From the NCBI GenBank assembly GCA_039819165.1, contig JBCBSM010000001.1, forward strand, positions 1,798,001 to 1,862,000: a stretch of DNA of 64,000 nucleotides, written 5' to 3'. The notes below the pieces were generated by a model that worked only from the letters and a program-made list of their open reading frames with translations, was not told where the DNA came from and made no database searches. The position numbers were made by a program, and so were the translations under genes. Of the stretch, positions 25,315 through 35,063 are shown piece by piece. The stretch's first letter is position 1; each line of letters begins with the position of its first letter. Origin of the DNA: Planctomycetota bacterium. Lineage in GTDB: Bacteria; Planctomycetota; Phycisphaerae; Phycisphaerales; UBA1924.

Positions 25315-25826
25315 CGAGCACCTCGCATCCCTCCGGGCGCCACGGGCACCCGTCTCCATCCGGTGCAAGGCGGATCGGCCGCGCCGAGCGGGCGCTTGAT
25401 CCGTTGGTTGGGAACACGCCGTAAGTTCAAGCTTCAATGAGGGTTAACCGGACGCATCCGCCCTTATCAGCAGCACTATCTGGACACACGGGGTGTTGTG
25501 GGACGTGGGGCGAGCCCGCGCCCGGGGGCCCGGAACCACTGCGCGGGAGCGATGCCTACGCGCCACCTGGGCGTCGCCCGAGCGGGGCCTAGCCGTCCGC
25601 CGGGGGCCGCCTGATGCATCCCCGCGGCGTCTCGGACGTAGGGTTTGCCACGCCCGCCTCGGTGGTGGCGGGCGTGCTGTCGGTCGGGCCCGCGTCGGGC
25701 TATCCTGCCGGCCGCGTCCCGCCGGTCGTCGCCATCTCGGGCGGCGTGCGGGGTGCGTGCCGACTCGTGCGCCCCGCGTGCGGCCAAAAAAGTGGACCGC
25801 CGCAACCTGCCTGAGGAGTGCCGCTC
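25315..25826. other. Long divergent intergenic region with a hairpin
   Basis: About 510 bases without a convincing gene between two divergent starts. It contains a relatively AT-rich patch near 25421-25447 and a perfect 10-base-pair hairpin, CACGCCCGCC at 25649-25658 with GGCGGGCGTG at 25667-25676. The hairpin could form in the leader of the downstream gene. Short open frames here lack ribosome sites and recognisable content. The length suggests regulated promoters in both directions, but no box is clear enough to call. Confidence 0.45.
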
Positions 25827-27986
25827 GTGCCCCAGCTCTCGCGATCCATCCTGCCCGTGCTCGTCGGCGGCCTCGTGCTGGCGTTCGCCTCCCCCACGCT
25901 GGCCCAGGACGACCCCACGCGGCTGACCGACCGCCAGGTGCTCGAGGAGTTCATCCACTTCACCTTTATTGATCGCGACGACGTGGCGGCCGACTACGGC
26001 CAGCAGTTGCTGGAGCGGGGCGTGGACCCGCAGGCCTTCGTCGACCTGATCGAGACCGCGGGGCTGGCCGACCGCTTCGACCGCGCGGTGGGCGAGGCCA
26101 TCCGCTCGGGCGTGGCCGAGACCGTGGCGGCCGACCTGCGGCGGCTGTTCGAGGAGGGCAAGCTGCAGCGGGTCCGCGATCCGCAGCAGATCGCCGAGAG
26201 CATCGCGCTGCTGACCGGCCCGCTCCGCGGGCGGCTGATCGCCAAGGAGCGGCTGCTGGCGGCGGGCGAGTACGCCGTGCCGCAGCTGCTCCGCGTGATC
26301 GAGGACGGCCAGGACTCCGCCCTGGTGCGGGAGGTTCGGGCGGTGCTGGTCGACATGCGGCAGCAGGCGGTGCTGCCCCTGAGCGTGGCGCTCCGCGAGG
26401 CGGCGCCCCGATCGCAGCGGGTCATCGCCGACCTGCTCGGGCAGATCGGCTTCGATACCGCGGTCCCGTTCCTGGCCGAGGTGCAGCGGGCCAGCGACAA
26501 CGAGGACGTTCGCGCCGCAGCGGCCCGCGCGATCGACGCCATCACCGGCGAGCAGTCGGCGACGGCCCACGAGTGGTACGTGCGGGTCGCCGAGAACTAC
26601 TCCCGCGAGGACGCCGGCGTCACGAGCTTCCCGGGCGAGCCCAACCAGTTGGTCTGGAGCTACCAGCCCGAGGTCGGCGGCCTGGTCTTCGATGCGGTGC
26701 CGTCGCAGGTCTTCCACGAGCTGATGGCGATGCGGCTGAGCGAGGACTCGCTCGAGCTGGTCCGCGAGCCCAACCGCACCGCGCTGGCGCTGTGGGTCGC
26801 GTCGTACCTGCGGCTGGACATCGAGCGGGCGGACGGCGACGCGATGGACCTCGGCCTGCGCGAGCCCATGTACTACGCGGTGGCGTCGGGCTCGACCATC
26901 GCCCAGAGCGTGCTGGGCCGGGCGCTGCGGACCAGCAACACGCAGCTTGCCCGCCGATCGATCGAGGCCGTCTCCCGCACGGCGGGCGGCAGCGACCTGT
27001 GGGCGGGCAGCGCCGGGTCGGCCCAGCCGATGGTGGAGGCGCTGACCTATCCCAACCGGCGGGTGCAGTACGAAGCGGCGCTGGCGTTCGCCTCGGCGCA
27101 GCCGCGGACGCCCTTCGAGCGGGCCGATGTGATCGCGCCGACGCTGGCGTCCTCGGTCCGCGGCGCAACGACGCGGTACGCCCTGGTGGTGGCCGCCGAC
27201 GAGGAGGTCTATCGAGGTCTGGCCCGCATGCTGGACGGCATGGGCTACGACGTGGCGCCCTTCGCCGGCTCGCTGGATGCGCTCAGCCAGGAGTATTCGG
27301 CCGCCCCGAGCGTCGACCTGGTGGTCTCGAGCCTTCCGCTCGACCAGACCGTGGGCCTGGTCACCCAGCTGCGGTCGACGACGCGGCTGATGGCCGCCCC
27401 GCTGCTGGTGCTCTCGGACGCGGGCGACGAGACCGAACTGCGGCGGCGATACGGCGCCGACCGGACCATCGCGTTGCGGCCGGCGGGCATCCGCAGCGAC
27501 GAGATGCAGGCGAGCATCGACGATCTCGTCGAGCGGACGCTGGGCGGGCCGATCTCGGCCGAGGAGGCATCCATCTATGCGTCGCGCTCCATTGCGGCGC
27601 TGCTGGAGCTGGCGATCTCCGATAACGGGGTGATCGTGGCGGAGGACGCCGCGAGCCAGCTGATCCGCGCGTTGCAGGAGGACTCGGGCGAGTTCGAGCT
27701 GCCGCTGGCGGAGCTGCTGTCCTGGTTCGATAACGCCGACGCGCAGCGGGCGATCTTCGATCGGGCGCTGCAGGCGCAGGGCGCGCAGCGGATCGCGCTG
27801 CTCGGGCACGCGGCCGACTCGGCGCGTCGGTTCGATAACCAGTTGCTCGATCGGCAGGTGCAGCGTCTGCTGCAGATCGCCCGCACCGGCGCGGACGCCG
27901 AGGCGATCGCCGCCGCCAGCCTGCTGGGCGCCCTGGGCGTGCCGACGGGCGACCTAGCGGGCCTGATCCTCGACGCCCGCGGCTAG
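25827..27986 (+). CDS. Exported HEAT-type protein with degenerate receiver domain
   Basis: A 719-residue protein with a Sec signal peptide (LPVLVGGLVLAFASPTLAQ, cleavage near residue 27). Helical HEAT-like repeats follow (about residues 90-250 and 300-440). At about 450-573 is a stretch that reads like a receiver domain: YALVVAADEEVYRGLARML, then SVDLVVSSLPLDQ where Ser stands for the phospho-acceptor Asp, and IALRPAG where Arg stands for Lys. A helical tail ends it. It probably works in the periplasm as a binding scaffold. GTG at 25827 is chosen because GAGGAG (25813-25818) lies 8 bases upstream. The pilin genes follow after a terminator. Confidence 0.65.
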   Translation: MPQLSRSILPVLVGGLVLAFASPTLAQDDPTRLTDRQVLEEFIHFTFIDRDDVAADYGQQLLERGVDPQAFVDLIETAGLADRFDRAVGEAIRSGVAETVAADLRRLFEEGKLQRVRDPQQIAESIALLTGPLRGRLIAKERLLAAGEYAVPQLLRVIEDGQDSALVREVRAVLVDMRQQAVLPLSVALREAAPRSQRVIADLLGQIGFDTAVPFLAEVQRASDNEDVRAAAARAIDAITGEQSATAHEWYVRVAENYSREDAGVTSFPGEPNQLVWSYQPEVGGLVFDAVPSQVFHELMAMRLSEDSLELVREPNRTALALWVASYLRLDIERADGDAMDLGLREPMYYAVASGSTIAQSVLGRALRTSNTQLARRSIEAVSRTAGGSDLWAGSAGSAQPMVEALTYPNRRVQYEAALAFASAQPRTPFERADVIAPTLASSVRGATTRYALVVAADEEVYRGLARMLDGMGYDVAPFAGSLDALSQEYSAAPSVDLVVSSLPLDQTVGLVTQLRSTTRLMAAPLLVLSDAGDETELRRRYGADRTIALRPAGIRSDEMQASIDDLVERTLGGPISAEEASIYASRSIAALLELAISDNGVIVAEDAASQLIRALQEDSGEFELPLAELLSWFDNADAQRAIFDRALQAQGAQRIALLGHAADSARRFDNQLLDRQVQRLLQIARTGADAEAIAAASLLGALGVPTGDLAGLILDARG

Positions 27987-28247: not shown

Positions 28248-28694
28248 ATGATGCGCGCACGAGTTCGCAAGGCGTTTACGCTGGTCGAGATCCTGATCGT
28301 TGTGGTGATCCTGGGCATCCTGGCCGCGATCGTTATTCCGCAGTTCACCAACGCCAGCGAGGAGGCGCAGTCCAGCAGCGCCGCCAGCCAGCTGTCGACG
28401 GTGCGCAACCAGATCGAGCTGTTCCGCGTGCGGAACAACGGCACGGCTCCGGCCATCGCCGACATCTTCGTCGAGGAGGTCGCCGGTGACGAGCCGTGGG
28501 ACGGCGTTGTCAACCCGGACTACCTCCGGGCCGCTCCGGTCAACCCCCGCACCGGCACGTCGACGCTCGCCGCCGGCACCGCCGCTCCGACCAGCTCGGT
28601 CGCCGCGGGTGACGATGGCTGGATCTACGACGCCGCCACCGGCTCCATCTGGATGAACGGCTTCGACGAGGTCAACCAGGAATGGATCCCGTAA
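28248..28694 (+). CDS. Type II secretion G-like pseudopilin, copy 1
   Basis: A 148-residue pseudopilin. The N-terminus is a seven- to eight-residue basic leader, then KAFTLVEILIVVVILGILAA, with Glu at mature position 5 and Ala before the cleavage point. The C-terminal globular part ends in DDGWIYDAATGSIWMNGF. It would be cut by a prepilin peptidase and polymerise into the pseudopilus that drives type II secretion, or into a type IV pilus. ATG 28248 follows GAGGAG at 28235-28240. It has its own terminator at 28712, so it may be made at a higher level than its neighbours. Confidence 0.88.
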   Translation: MMRARVRKAFTLVEILIVVVILGILAAIVIPQFTNASEEAQSSSAASQLSTVRNQIELFRVRNNGTAPAIADIFVEEVAGDEPWDGVVNPDYLRAAPVNPRTGTSTLAAGTAAPTSSVAAGDDGWIYDAATGSIWMNGFDEVNQEWIP

Positions 28695-28747: not shown

Positions 28748-28783
28748 CGTGTGTGCGGGACCGCCCGGAGGGAGCACGCAGCC

Positions 28784-29212
28784 ATGGCAGCCATCCGCCC
28801 CAGAGCATTCACGCTCGTCGAGATCCTCATCGTGGTGGTGATCCTCGGAATACTGGCCGCGATCATCGTGCCGCAGATGGTCGGCGCGCAGACCGAATCG
28901 CAGATCAGCGCGACGCTCTACGACCTGGGCAAGATCCGGCGGCACGTGGTGGCCTACGAGGCGCGCAATGATGCCTTCCCCGAGGTTCAGGCCGGCGACG
29001 GCACGTGGGGCCAGATCGTCGGCACCAGCGGCGACTACCTGATGTCGGCGCCCATTAATGCCTACGTCGGCGGCGGCAACCGCGGCGTGATCATCCTGCG
29101 GGACTCGGCCGACACGGCCTTCCAGACCGACCACGGCTGGATCTTCGACGCGGCGGTGGGCGAGGTGTGGGCCGGCGGCTTCAGCGCTCAGGACGCCCCG
29201 CTGCCCAAGTAG
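28784..29212 (+). CDS. Type II secretion G-like pseudopilin, copy 2
   Basis: A 142-residue paralogue of the preceding pilin. The N-terminus reads RAFTLVEILIVVVILGILAA, again with Ala at -1 and Glu at +5. The C-terminal block DHGWIFDAAVGEVWAGGF matches the end of copy 1, so the two arose by duplication. The central part differs, which suggests a different surface or a different place in the filament. ATG 28784 has GGAGGGAG at 28767-28774. The next gene starts 31 bases on, so copy 2 and the GspH-like gene are probably one unit. Confidence 0.87.
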   Translation: MAAIRPRAFTLVEILIVVVILGILAAIIVPQMVGAQTESQISATLYDLGKIRRHVVAYEARNDAFPEVQAGDGTWGQIVGTSGDYLMSAPINAYVGGGNRGVIILRDSADTAFQTDHGWIFDAAVGEVWAGGFSAQDAPLPK

Positions 29213-29243: not shown

Positions 29244-29774
29244 ATGCGTCGCCAACGCTCTGCCTACACGCTGGTCGAGGTGCTCGTCGTCGTGACGGTG
29301 CTCGGCATCGCCGCGGCCCTGGTGGTTCCGGCGATGGGATCGGCGGGCAACCTGCGGGTGCAGTCGGCGGTCCGCGAGGTCGTGGCCGACATCACCTTTG
29401 CGCAGTCCGACGCGGTGGCCTACCAGGCGCGGCGGGCCGTCGTCTTCTTCGAGGGCGAGGGCCGCTACGTGGTCTGCGAGGTCCGCGGGGCGACGATCGA
29501 CCCCGAGACCGACGCGCTCTTCGACCGCACCCGGCCCGACGAACGCTACGACGTGATCTGGGACAACCAGCAGACCAACGGGGCGGCGATCATCGACGTC
29601 GACTTCGACGGCGACAACGTCCTGATCTTCGACGAGCTGGGTGGCCCGGTCGAGACCGCCGCGGGCGATCGGCCCGGTGCGGGCGGCGAGATCCGCATCC
29701 GCGACGCCTCGGGCCAGACCTTCGTGATCATGGTCGAGCCCTACACCGGCCGCGTCACCGTCGAGCGCGAATAG
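29244..29774 (+). CDS. GspH-like minor pseudopilin
   Basis: A 176-residue protein with a class III leader and SAYTLVEVLVVVTVLGIAAA at its N-terminus: Ala at -1, Tyr at +1 and Glu at +5. The next block, VREVVADITFAQSDAVAYQA, resembles the conserved helix after the membrane segment of GspH/FimT minor pseudopilins, which cap or prime the pseudopilus. The C-terminal half is acidic. A ribosome site (CGGAGGACG) precedes the ATG. It follows the two G-like pilin genes and precedes a small membrane protein and the secretin. Confidence 0.8.
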   Translation: MRRQRSAYTLVEVLVVVTVLGIAAALVVPAMGSAGNLRVQSAVREVVADITFAQSDAVAYQARRAVVFFEGEGRYVVCEVRGATIDPETDALFDRTRPDERYDVIWDNQQTNGAAIIDVDFDGDNVLIFDELGGPVETAAGDRPGAGGEIRIRDASGQTFVIMVEPYTGRVTVERE

Positions 29775-30294: not shown

Positions 30295-33200
30295 ATGACC
30301 GCTCGCAGCACGAAGCCGAACGCGCTCGCCTCGAACCTGTCGCTGACGACGGCTTCGGCCGCCGCCCTTGGCGCAGCGGGGCATACTCCGGTGACGCTGG
30401 CCCAGGCCGGCGACGCCTTCTCGATCGAGAAGACCCCGCAGATGACGGCGGTCGGCACCGAGGCCACACCTAGCGACGAGGCCGCGTTGCCCAACAACGG
30501 TGAGATCACCGTCGACGAGCACCTGATCGTCGACCTGCACGTCGTCGACGAGGACCTGGCCGACGTGCTCCAGCTGCTCTCGATCCAGAGCCAGCGGAAC
30601 ATCGTCGCCAGCAACAGTGTGTCGGCCACCGTGACGGCCACGCTCTACGGCGTGACCTTCTACGAGGCACTCGACGCCATCCTGCACGTCAACGGCTTCG
30701 GCTACATCGAGGAAGGCAACTTCATCTATGTGTACACGGCCGAGGAGATCCAGCGGATCATCGATACGAGCCGCAAGCGCTCGTCGGCGGTCATCCCGCT
30801 GGATTACCTCAACCCGACCGACGCCGCCGAGTTCGCCCAGGCGCTGCTGAGCGAGTCGGGCCAGATCAAGGCCCCGGGGCGGACGGCTCCGTTCCAGATC
30901 CCCGATAACGCGCCGGTGGGCGCCGACGACCTGGCAACCGAGTCGTTCATCGTGGTGGTCGACTTCGACAGCAACATCGAGGAGATCCGCAACCTCCTCA
31001 CGCAGATCGACACCAAGCCCAGCCAGGTGCTGGTCGAGGCCACCATCCTGCAGGCGGCCCTCAACGAGGCCAACGCCTTCGGTGTGGACTTCTCGATCAT
31101 CGGCAGCCTGAACTTCGGCGACTTCCTGGGCGGCCCGCTGGACGCCGTCGACACGCTGATCTCGGGCCGCAGCGAGGACGAGTTCGGCACGCCCATCCTG
31201 GTGCCGGGCGAGGCCAACCAGCCCGGCGGCGCCATCACGAGCACCGCGGGCCAGACCAGCAAGGGCGGCACGCTGAAGCTCGGCTACGTCGATGGCGACT
31301 TCGCCGCCTTCCTCCGCGTGCTGGACGAGGTCACCGATACGACCATCATCGCGCGGCCCAAGGTGCTGACGCTCAACCGCCAGCCCGCCCGCGTGCTGGT
31401 CGGCGAGCGCGTCGGCTACCTGAGCAGCACGACGACCGAGACGGGCACGACGCAGACCGTCGAGTTCCTGGATACCGGTACCCAGCTGTACTTCCGCCCG
31501 TTCGTCTCGCGCGACGGGCTGATCCGCATGGAGCTCAAGCCCCAGGTCTCCGAGGCCGTCATCCGCGACGCCACCGATACCGGCGGCTCGACGGTGACCA
31601 TCCCCGACGAGACGACCAACGAGCTGACCGCCAACGTCATGGTCCGCGACGGGCAGACCATCGTGCTGGGCGGCCTGTTCCGCGAGCGGACGCAGTACAC
31701 CCGCCGGCAGGTGCCCTACATCGGCGACCTGCCGTTCATCGGGGCAGCCTTCCGCGGACAGGAGGACGCGGTCGACCGCGCGGAGATCATCTTCATGATC
31801 ACGCCGTCGATCATCAACGACCAGGTCATCTCCGAGTCGGCCGAGCGCGCCAAGGCGCTCATCGAGGGCGCCGTGACCGGCACCCGCGAGGGGCTGCTGC
31901 CCTTCAGCCGCGACAAGCAGGCCTCGCGTCTGCTCGTCGAGGCGCAGCAGCACGCCGCCGATGGCAACACCGACAAGGCGATCTACTGCGTGCGGCGTTC
32001 GCTCTCGCTGAGCCCCAACCAGCCGCAGGCCCGGGTGCTGCTCGAGCGTCTCAGCAACGACGTGCGGACGTGGCCCGAACGGAGCATGCTCCAGGACGTC
32101 TTCGAGATGGAGCTGACCGAGTCGACCGACGAGATCACCGAGGATATCGAGGGTGACGAGGTCGACACCGAGGTTGCTCTTGCCGACGGCGAGATCACCG
32201 AGAGCGAGGAGGCCGCGGACGACGGCGACGCGCTCCAGGTGTCGACCCCGCCGCTGGGGCTGACCGAGATCCCCGACGCCGACGAGGCCGAAGGCGACAC
32301 GACCGACGGTGACGAGCCGGCGGACGGCGAGGACATCTCGGACGAGGCTGATGAGGCCGAGGACGGCGACGAGTCGGACGAGGTCGCCTCGGATCCGACC
32401 GAGGATGCGACCGAGCTTGAGGACGATTCGCTCGCGGAGGCCGACATCGATCCGGAGGCCGCCGAGGCCGAGGCGCTCGCCGCCGATACCGAGACGCTCG
32501 ACGAGACCGAACTGGCCGATGCCCGCGAGGGCGCGGACGGCCAGACCGAGAGCGCCGAGGAGGCCTTCGAGGGCGCCGACTGGGTGTCGCAGCTGGCCGA
32601 CAGCGAGATCGAGAGCGCGGCCGACGCGCTCCCGGTCGAGGGAGCCGACGCGGGCGAGCAGCCCGTGGAGATCGCCGAGGAGGCGATGGCCGAGGCCGAG
32701 GAGCCGACCGAGGGCGTCCTCTTCAACGCCGAGGCGCAGACCGTCGACGTGCTGGTGAGCAACACCGACATGCAGGACGTGCTGCGTGACCTGGGTCGCG
32801 TGTCGCGGCGGAACATCGTGGCCGATCGCGCGGTGACCGGCAACGTGACGGCAACGCTCTACGACATGGACTTCTACGACGCGCTCGACATCCTGACGGG
32901 CATGAACGGCGCGGGCTACGTCGAGGACGGCAAGATCATCTACGTCTACACGCAGGAACAGCTCGACACCATGGCCGCCGCCGAGCGTGCCGAGGCCGAG
33001 GCGCTCGCGGCCGCCGAGGCCGAGGCCCTCGCCGAGGCGGCGCGCGACGACGAATCCACCGATCCGGTCGACCAGACCGAAGGCGATGAGCTCGCATCGG
33101 CCACTGACACGACGCCCGCGGCGGACGACGCAGCGGACGAGGCGACCCCCGACCTGGCGTCCATCTTCGGCGGCGAGCCGGCTACCGATGGGGCCGACGA

Positions 33201-33609
33201 GCCGGCCGAGACCGAGACCACGACCGACGGCGGATCGACGCTCATCGACGAGCCGATGACGCTCGACGACGACCCGACCGACTTCGGGCCCGAGGGCTTC
33301 GGCGAGGACGACTTTGGCAACGGCGGCTTGGGCGAGGGCGGCTTGGGCAACAACGCCGACGCGGGCGCCAACGGTGATATGCCGGCGTTCTCGGGCGTGT
33401 TCGGGGAGGACGGCGAGGTGCTGCCCGAGGCCGAGCCGGTCGAGCGTGAGATCAACGACGCGGCGGCGAAGGCGCTGCTGGGCTCGCTGAGCTTCAGCAC
33501 GTACGAGTGGTCGCCGAGCACGACGCGGGACGCCTTCATGGAGCCCACGCCGTGGGTCAAGGAGCCGGCGTCGATCGACGATGCGGACGCCGAGGCGCTC
33601 ATCGACTAG
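30295..33609 (+). CDS. Secretin with a second, C-terminal STN domain
   Basis: A 1104-residue outer-membrane pore of the GspD/PilQ type. Residues about 78-155 are an STN/N0 domain. N1-type repeats and the secretin core follow (about 245-510), with RVGYLSSTTT, VRDGQTIVLGGLFRE and VPYIGDLPFIGAAFR, the standard C-terminal secretin blocks. A TPR-like helical patch (about 530-600) and a very acidic linker (about 605-800) come next. A second STN copy then sits at about 815-890, sharing RNIVA, VTATLY and IYVYT with the first. The tail is Glu/Gly-rich. The start is ATG 30295. Usual secretins end soon after the beta-barrel, so the extension is unusual. Confidence 0.88.
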   Translation: MTARSTKPNALASNLSLTTASAAALGAAGHTPVTLAQAGDAFSIEKTPQMTAVGTEATPSDEAALPNNGEITVDEHLIVDLHVVDEDLADVLQLLSIQSQRNIVASNSVSATVTATLYGVTFYEALDAILHVNGFGYIEEGNFIYVYTAEEIQRIIDTSRKRSSAVIPLDYLNPTDAAEFAQALLSESGQIKAPGRTAPFQIPDNAPVGADDLATESFIVVVDFDSNIEEIRNLLTQIDTKPSQVLVEATILQAALNEANAFGVDFSIIGSLNFGDFLGGPLDAVDTLISGRSEDEFGTPILVPGEANQPGGAITSTAGQTSKGGTLKLGYVDGDFAAFLRVLDEVTDTTIIARPKVLTLNRQPARVLVGERVGYLSSTTTETGTTQTVEFLDTGTQLYFRPFVSRDGLIRMELKPQVSEAVIRDATDTGGSTVTIPDETTNELTANVMVRDGQTIVLGGLFRERTQYTRRQVPYIGDLPFIGAAFRGQEDAVDRAEIIFMITPSIINDQVISESAERAKALIEGAVTGTREGLLPFSRDKQASRLLVEAQQHAADGNTDKAIYCVRRSLSLSPNQPQARVLLERLSNDVRTWPERSMLQDVFEMELTESTDEITEDIEGDEVDTEVALADGEITESEEAADDGDALQVSTPPLGLTEIPDADEAEGDTTDGDEPADGEDISDEADEAEDGDESDEVASDPTEDATELEDDSLAEADIDPEAAEAEALAADTETLDETELADAREGADGQTESAEEAFEGADWVSQLADSEIESAADALPVEGADAGEQPVEIAEEAMAEAEEPTEGVLFNAEAQTVDVLVSNTDMQDVLRDLGRVSRRNIVADRAVTGNVTATLYDMDFYDALDILTGMNGAGYVEDGKIIYVYTQEQLDTMAAAERAEAEALAAAEAEALAEAARDDESTDPVDQTEGDELASATDTTPAADDAADEATPDLASIFGGEPATDGADEPAETETTTDGGSTLIDEPMTLDDDPTDFGPEGFGEDDFGNGGLGEGGLGNNADAGANGDMPAFSGVFGEDGEVLPEAEPVEREINDAAAKALLGSLSFSTYEWSPSTTRDAFMEPTPWVKEPASIDDADAEALID

Positions 33610-33752: not shown

Positions 33753-35063
33753 ATGCACAACCACCGACGCACGAACACGATGACGCTCGCCGCCCGCGTG
33801 CTCTTCGCCGCCGGCCTGGCCGGCAGCGTGGCGCTCACCGGCTGCATGGGCAGCCGCGGCTCGGCCGAGAACCGCAACCTCGCCGAGGCCAGGCTCTCGG
33901 GGATGAAGAGCGGCACCGAGTGGGACATGGCACGGCAGGCCTTCCTGTCGGGCGATCCCGATAAGGCCCTCGACCACATCGATCGCTCGCTGGCGCTCAA
34001 CGACGGCGTCGTGCGGTCGCACGTGCTCCGCGGCCGCATCATGATGGAGCTGGGCAACTTCGAGGAGGCGATGGCGTCGCTGCAGCAGGCCGAGATCCTC
34101 GGCCCCGAGGACGTCGACGCCAAGTACTTCCTGGGCGTTGCCAACGAGCGCATTGGCGAGAAGGAGGAGGCGATGGGCCACTACCAGGCCGCCGCCGAGC
34201 TGGATAGCTCCAAGGCGATCTACGCCGTCGCGGCCGCCGAGATGCTGATCGACATCGGTCGCATCGACGACGCCGAGGCGTACCTCGTGGACCGCCTCGA
34301 GGTGTACCGCCACAGCGCGGGCGTGCGGCAGACGCTCGGACACATCGCGATGATGCGCAATGAGTCCGAGTCCGCCGCCGCGTGGTTCACCGAAGCCCGC
34401 TTCCTGGCGCCCGACGAGCCGGGCGTGCAGGAGGACCTGGCCCGCGCGGAGCTGGCCGCCGGCCGCTACGCCGAGGCCGAGTACAACCTGGCCGAGCTGC
34501 TGCAGCGCGAGGGCTTCGAGGATCGCCGCGACCTGCAGCACATGCGGGCGCGGTGCCTCGTCGAGGTCGATCGCCCGGTGGAGGCCCGCGAGCTCCTCAT
34601 CGAGCTGACCGACAGCGCGGGCGGCGAGAAGGACGTGGACGCGTGGATCCAGCTGGGCCACGTGTGCTACACCCTGCGGGACCTGTCGCGGGTCCGCCGG
34701 TCGGCCTCCCGCGTGATCGCGCTGGCGCCCACCCGCCCGGAGGGATACCTGCTGCGGGCGCTCCAGCAGCGGAGCACGGGCGACCTGGACGCGGCGCTGG
34801 CGAGCCTGGACCTGGCCATCGAGCGGGGCGAGGGCGATCCGTCGCCGCTGATCCTGCGGGGCCTGATCGCCCAGCAGGCCGACATGCCGGGGCTGGCCCG
34901 CACCAGCTTCCAGAGGGCCTTCGAGCTGGATCCGGATAACCAGAGCCTCGAGCGGATGATCGCGGCGCTGGACGGCCAGCAGGACGACGCGCTTGCGACC
35001 GAGCCCGAGCGGCCCAACGCCGAGCCGGCCGAGGCCTTCACCTCGGTGACCGACAACCCCTAG
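33753..35063 (+). CDS. TPR-repeat lipoprotein
   Basis: A 436-residue lipoprotein. The signal peptide ends in VALTGCMG, a good lipobox with the acylated Cys at about residue 34. The mature protein is made of about nine TPR-like helical pairs (for example KALDHIDRSLALNDGVVRSH and GNFEEAMASLQQAEILGP). Placed directly after the secretin, it may act like PilF/PilW or GspS pilotins that help secretin reach or assemble in the outer membrane. Its repeat number is larger than in PilF. ATG 33753 has AAGGGACG upstream; ATG 33780 is an alternative. Confidence 0.8.
   Translation: MHNHRRTNTMTLAARVLFAAGLAGSVALTGCMGSRGSAENRNLAEARLSGMKSGTEWDMARQAFLSGDPDKALDHIDRSLALNDGVVRSHVLRGRIMMELGNFEEAMASLQQAEILGPEDVDAKYFLGVANERIGEKEEAMGHYQAAAELDSSKAIYAVAAAEMLIDIGRIDDAEAYLVDRLEVYRHSAGVRQTLGHIAMMRNESESAAAWFTEARFLAPDEPGVQEDLARAELAAGRYAEAEYNLAELLQREGFEDRRDLQHMRARCLVEVDRPVEARELLIELTDSAGGEKDVDAWIQLGHVCYTLRDLSRVRRSASRVIALAPTRPEGYLLRALQQRSTGDLDAALASLDLAIERGEGDPSPLILRGLIAQQADMPGLARTSFQRAFELDPDNQSLERMIAALDGQQDDALATEPERPNAEPAEAFTSVTDNP

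Follow-up and report, generated by a model that had tools for sequence, protein, structure and literature searches.

A planctomycete secretin with a second N0 domain behind its barrel

In a 64,000-nucleotide stretch of a Planctomycetota genome (order Phycisphaerales; contig JBCBSM010000001.1, positions 1,798,001 to 1,862,000; hereafter the window) we find a secretin gene whose product carries a second copy of the N0 domain (N0/STN) behind the barrel. The second copy is real, has a predicted N0 fold and is kept by the genus; it is a known domain in a new place on a secretin. To our knowledge, secretins have been described with their N-domains before the barrel and with no more than a short pilotin-binding segment after it, and a literature search, with most subscription papers and all preprints outside its coverage, brought up no secretin described as having an N0 behind the barrel.

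The second N0 copy: duplication, fold and spread

Judged by its sequence, the protein is an outer-membrane secretin of the PilQ/GspD class, matching Pfam Secretin with an E-value (E) of 3.8e-41 and 140.9 bits against a cut-off of 27.5, which places it in the secretin superfamily PF00263. The Pfam scan reported six families at E up to 1, and the GspD N0 family covers two stretches of the protein (E 8.1e-9 overall). Against this, the second copy of the window secretin scores 22.2 bits when taken alone, under the Pfam N0 cut-off of 27, a value that the counterpart tails of G014 (27.6) and G021 (29.7) pass. An earlier first-pass annotation had placed the second STN domain after the barrel, a TPR-like patch and about 200 mostly acidic residues (about 195 acidic and mostly disordered residues in our analysis). 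This order is borne out by Pfam and by a full-length structure model built on 18 sequences (mean predicted local distance difference test score, pLDDT, 57.6; predicted template modelling score, pTM, 0.33).

The duplication is evident from direct comparison. Residues 79-154 and 817-892 (offset 738) are identical at 38 of 76 positions, where a shuffled first copy set against residues 601-1104 gave at most 18 identities in 1,000 trials. A local BLOSUM62 alignment of the first copy with the same region scored 191, with a maximum of 51 over 500 shuffles, and at the DNA level positions 30619-30738 and 32833-32952 are 75% identical. The first-pass annotation had counted 37 of 76 identities with the second copy at 816-891; the duplication holds, and the second range has to be shifted by one residue, because only 7 of 76 positions match at exactly 816-891.

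Modelled alone, the second N0 reached a mean pLDDT of 87.3 and a pTM of 0.76, from an alignment in which 20 of 24 rows are first copies, a composition that biases toward the N0 fold, so that this model tests fold compatibility more than it proves the fold. One row containing an X (L049) was omitted from the structure alignments. The best solved match of the model is the N0 domain of PilQ (4ar0; Foldseek E 8.4e-6), with a VIA-align Z of 12.3 and a root-mean-square deviation of 3.1 over 88 residues. In the full-length model the domain appears at 816-886 as a confident island between disordered stretches (10-residue means 83-93), and a helix that the first-pass annotation had not recorded (887-921) runs on from it before disorder sets in. 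The proposal that the second region folds as an STN domain is thus upheld in prediction.

The signalling domains of PupR, FpvA and FecA are also among the structural matches of the second N0 and share its fold family. They would suit a signal relay of the kind in which the STN domain of a TonB-dependent transducer meets a FecR-type anti-sigma factor, and a weak Pfam FecR_C match (E 0.14) points the same way. We consider such a relay very improbable, and FecR-type signalling was set aside, as the genome gave no FecR match at E 0.01 in a search that was positive in 4 of 14 control genomes.

A secretin homologue was found in 158 of the 163 family genomes at E up to 1e-60. Of these 158, 150 were examined and eight left out, and the comparison set of 174 frames comprised the 150 family genomes, 21 genomes of other families in the order and three paralogues. 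A profile of the first copy detected a second copy behind the barrel in eight frames (G000, G001, G003, G004, G005, G006, G014 and G021); in one further genus member, G002, the second copy lies on a different contig from the first. A second copy, as sought in related genomes, is therefore present in 9 of 150 family genomes, including all seven sampled members of the genus, six of these in one frame. Weaker second matches of the first-copy profile all had E above 5, and a search for more divergent second copies, with a model built from the nine, matched only those nine tails (next E 2.7). The two-STN layout is seen again in independent assemblies whose sequences differ, among them one of a single contig (G004) and one of two contigs (G005), which leaves practically no room for an assembly artefact.

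On a FastTree phylogeny of the secretin core (172 of the 174 rows) three changes are required to explain the second copy, whose bearers (the genus, G014 and G021) are placed apart. In a tree of STN domains the seven second copies of the genus form one group (87/87), and the second copy of G014 joins its own first copy (100/88, on a very long branch). A single origin of all nine was disfavoured (approximately unbiased test, p-AU 0.04; bootstrap not settled, branches long). These trees suggest, with moderate confidence, three gains of the second N0, which would derive from the N0 family of the secretin itself. Across a sample of the class, STN-profile matches occurred in 344 of 397 genomes, and among 24 selected genomes with at least two STN-profile matches, among the matches listed, two from other families of the class have several in one open frame (Table 1). 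We do not claim that the two-STN layout is confined to the family.

A possible docking role for the tethered N0

We tentatively favour, while judging it somewhat short of probable, a reading in which docking of the tethered N0 creates an outer layer and a pilotin is held by the tail end. The C-terminus would leave the barrel on the periplasmic side and, because both barrel ends would face the periplasm, the N0 region is the probable docking site of the tethered N0. The 12 to 15 copies per channel would surround the periplasmic ring from outside, and could dock on an N0 region, that of their own or of an adjacent subunit, or on the inner-membrane partner that binds there. Docked copies would make up an outer, second N0 layer, stiffening the ring or coupling it to the inner-membrane platform during filament passage. 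The extreme C-terminus behind the second N0 may serve as a grip for the neighbouring TPR lipoprotein, which as a putative pilotin would take the secretin to the outer membrane.

Among the roles offered in the first-pass annotation, docking on or cross-linking neighbouring N-domains fits this periplasmic topology and the precedent of VirB7. In the type IV secretion system of Xanthomonas, as described in the available part of the report, a flexible segment bears the N0 domain of VirB7, and an extra ring layer has been proposed (PMC3093366). The likeness would lie in an N0 on a disordered segment within an outer-membrane complex; VirB7 differs, as far as that part of the report goes, in being a small separate lipoprotein with the disordered segment N-terminal to the N0 (PMC3093366). 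For the grip, the available part of a report on the Tad system describes the last residues of the secretin RcpA, which ends at D416, binding a groove of the TPR pilotin TadD (PMC10499894). Both cases would pair an unstructured secretin C-terminus with a TPR lipoprotein, here a candidate partner, but RcpA is short (416 residues) and, in that part of the report, has no N0 on its C-terminal side (PMC10499894).

Several observations weigh against docking. The single-domain model of the second copy carries the alignment bias described above. The full-length model, with its low overall scores (pLDDT 57.6, pTM 0.33), is silent on the docking place. A second N0 is missing from 141 of the 150 family genomes examined, so it is dispensable for basic function. 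PilP, the partner bound by the N0 of PilQ, gave no match at E up to 1, which says little because the search was insensitive and was positive in just 1 of 14 controls. Finally, the second copy of the window is only 37% identical to that of G004 (first copy 91%), with a ratio of nonsynonymous to synonymous rates (dN/dS) of 1.3, and 38% identical to that of G005 (dN/dS 0.88), the first copies in such pairs being 91-92% identical; divergence this fast would be as compatible with relaxed or diversifying evolution as with docking.

The rate of change also bears on whether the second N0 is a mere passenger, a neutral and decaying leftover of duplication in a tail that tolerates insertions. The great diversity of the tails, the fast divergence of the second copy between species and its absence from most family members would all agree with this. 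In the closest pair (G003 and G005), however, the dN/dS values are 0.047 (first copy), 0.052 (second copy) and 0.38 (linker and tail), with fewer nonsynonymous changes in the second copy than in the linker (p ~4e-8, from approximate counts). The second N0 is conserved in this pair and the linker is not. With a predicted fold that is intact and a domain kept in 7 of 7 genus members, we think a passenger unlikely.

One sister pair changes in a different manner. G004 (L008) and G001 (L009) have identical first copies, 73% identical linkers and 68% identical tails, and second copies that are only 44% identical. Nucleotide identity drops to 0.50-0.63 over about 60 codons of the second STN domain and recovers on both sides. 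With a third-position identity of 0.45 to its own first copy, the second copy gives no sign of having been converted by it. Nor do the eight genomes compared support a recent gene conversion of this kind, third-position identity between own first and second copies being 0.40 to 0.63. Domain exchange with an unsampled lineage would explain the drop, with mixed metagenome assembly as a caveat, because the records matching these genomes are metagenome-assembled genomes.

Domains in the tails of other secretins

A long, usually acidic tail is ordinary in homologues of the family and order. The median length behind the core is 306 residues across the 174 homologues (592 for the whole tail of the window secretin), and 139 of the 149 tails longer than 180 residues are net negative. 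The tail sequences are very diverse, and at least two kinds of domain occur in them. The first-pass annotation was thus right about the second N0 behind the barrel and incomplete about the tail that bears it.

The other domain is a pseudopilin head, found in 11 of 174 tails (Table 1), twice in G033 and alongside the second N0 in G021. These heads resemble the pseudopilin encoded at 28751-29212 of the window (phmmer best E 8.6e-18 among tails). Their identity rests on this direct comparison, because Pfam reports no pilin family for the G118 and G033 tails and none for the G021 head either, where only the N0 is reported. The pseudopilin head needs six changes on the core tree.

Machine-part copies in the tails could also point to competition. 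A tethered N0 might act as bait or brake, competing with the ring N0 for the inner-membrane partner, in which case it would regulate docking rather than add structure. In the PilQ-PilP pair the partner is bound through N0, PilP binding the N0 domain of PilQ according to the available part of that report (PMC3441751). The second copy has diverged in sequence from the first and evolves faster, and a pseudopilin head, as carried by other tails, is likewise a copy of a machine part. Such a role does not seem likely to us, the missing PilP match counting against it within the limits of that search.

Plugging or gating, which the first-pass annotation had also offered, is less likely, judged by tail size and exit side. 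Here the second N0, or elsewhere the pseudopilin head, would sit in the channel lumen and be displaced by the filament, and heads of this kind would suit a lumen made for pilins. Known secretin C-termini, however, sit outside the barrel. In the available part of the Tad report the S-domain of RcpA leads to TadD (PMC10499894), and 12 to 15 tails of 592 residues would hardly fit inside. A plug or gate is thus a long shot.

A folded, tethered N0 behind the barrel, present in 9 of 150 family genomes and in three lines, suggests that an extra layer may be gained without rebuilding the ring. We raise as a rather doubtful generalisation that in this family copies of machine parts have repeatedly settled in the tail (three N0 gains, 11 pseudopilin-head tails), an evolvable layer that would tune docking by mimicry and in which the N0 could be swapped between species; exchange of such an N0 cassette is suggested by the sister pair G004 and G001. 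Pseudopilin heads at the same tail position raise the general question of whether secretin tails present copies of machine parts that control assembly.

The ends of the tails share some features. Of the 169 complete tails, 129 end in a charged residue (82 in D or E), five tails running off their locus being excluded, and within the genus a motif near the end of the C-terminal tail is conserved. Near the C-terminus, 58 of 174 tails have a VPT-like motif. Shuffling gave a mean of 21 (maximum 31 of 200), and a control window had the motif in 21 of 124; it is suggestive only, and in that form is absent from the window secretin. Separately, the secretin tails L142 (G135) and L032 (G020) contain WWxSPEFxxFxxxW-type repeats.

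Gene features, neighbours and secretin class

Table 1. Features of the secretin gene and its neighbours in the window, and related frames elsewhere.
Feature	Position	Strand	Remarks
Pseudopilin-like gene 1	28248..28694	+	Pfam N_methyl 8e-7; listed frame starts 28146
Pseudopilin-like gene 2	28751..29212	+	Pfam N_methyl 4.8e-7; head matches tail domain of other secretins
GspH-like pseudopilin gene 3	29244..29774	+	Pfam N_methyl 2.6e-6, GspH 1.5e-4
Secretin gene, 1104 aa + stop	30295..33609	+	Single open frame, ATG 30295, stop ends 33609
First N0/STN domain, residues 79-154	30529..30756	+	Pfam type_II_gspD_N0, best stretch 83-144
Secretin_N (N1-like), residues 165-244	30787..31026	+	Pfam 19.9 bits, below cut-off 28.2
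Secretin barrel region, residues 245-507	31027..31815	+	Pfam Secretin 343-507; model strands 244-507
Helical TPR-like region, residues 509-619	31819..32151	+	Weak Pfam TPR_14, E 0.7; modelled helices
Acidic linker, residues 621-814	32155..32736	+	Mostly disordered, pLDDT mostly <50
Second N0/STN domain, residues 817-892	32743..32970	+	Identity to first copy; model
C-terminal tail, residues 922-1104	33058..33606	+	Mostly disordered, short helix 1048-1064
TPR lipoprotein gene, pilotin candidate	33753..35063	+	Lipobox LTGC; Pfam TPR_2 2.5e-30
Two STN-profile matches in one open frame	G411:C201:15592-16098		Other family of class
Three STN-profile matches in one open frame	G447:C213:7971-9779		Other family of class
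Tails with pseudopilin head	L026 (G021), L164 (G033), L156, L158, L075, L084, L159, L023, L175, L019, L071		

The start at 30295 is in line with the aligned starts of genus members. In the full-length model residues 1-76 have pLDDT below 50, strands and helices of the first N0 lie at 78-148 (a Pfam STN match at 102-148 is below its cut-off) and the N1 at 163-238. The TPR-like helices reach pLDDT values up to 92 in 10-residue blocks, and the acidic linker, with 38% D and E over about 190 residues, contains short modelled helices at 720-731, 737-745 and 763-777.

Among the 168 loci that extend more than 300 nucleotides past the secretin, 164 have a co-oriented homologue of the TPR lipoprotein downstream of it, although some may be non-orthologues because TPR proteins resemble one another. 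The window's own TPR lipoprotein gene likewise lies beside its secretin, and its product scores 69.6 against the NCBIfam PilW model (TIGR02521; E 2.8e-19), below the cut-off of 154. Ahead of the pseudopilin genes, positions 25818-27986 encode a protein in which one HEAT-like stretch matches Pfam HEAT_2 below its cut-off.

The assignment to the PilQ/GspD class is a broad one, as the protein scores 236.3 against NCBIfam PilQ (TIGR02515; cut-off 284.35) and 215.7 against GspD (TIGR02517; cut-off 351.35). With PilQ (6ve2, 6w6m, 4av2) it shares the N0-N1-barrel core. The best sequence match in the PDB is 6ve2, aligned over the barrel region and beyond (residues 75-513, E 3.7e-35), and 6w6m is the best Foldseek match of the full-length model. 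Proteobacterial PilQ carries one or more AMIN domains ahead of N0; the window secretin differs in having about 600 residues with a second N0 behind the barrel, and AMIN is not among the Pfam families reported for it at E up to 1. With GspD it shares the barrel and a GspD-type N0, but its model contains only one N1-like domain. The pilQ gene typically stands beside pilM-pilN-pilO-pilP, whereas here matches to PilM and PilN, together with one T2SSE-type ATPase, lie at about 986-991 kb of contig C1 and not beside the secretin.

The genome contains four other secretin matches. Outside the window, a giant secretin lies at about 1,470,000-1,485,000 on the minus strand (G000:C1; L202:13965-20000 and L203:1-9033), in an open frame of 5023 codons with a Secretin domain and about 39 Secretin_N stretches (15 and 24, the frame being split between two loci). 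By our count, 29 of 61 relatives have a secretin match in a frame of more than 3,000 codons, the giant G000 frame being the only one looked at individually.

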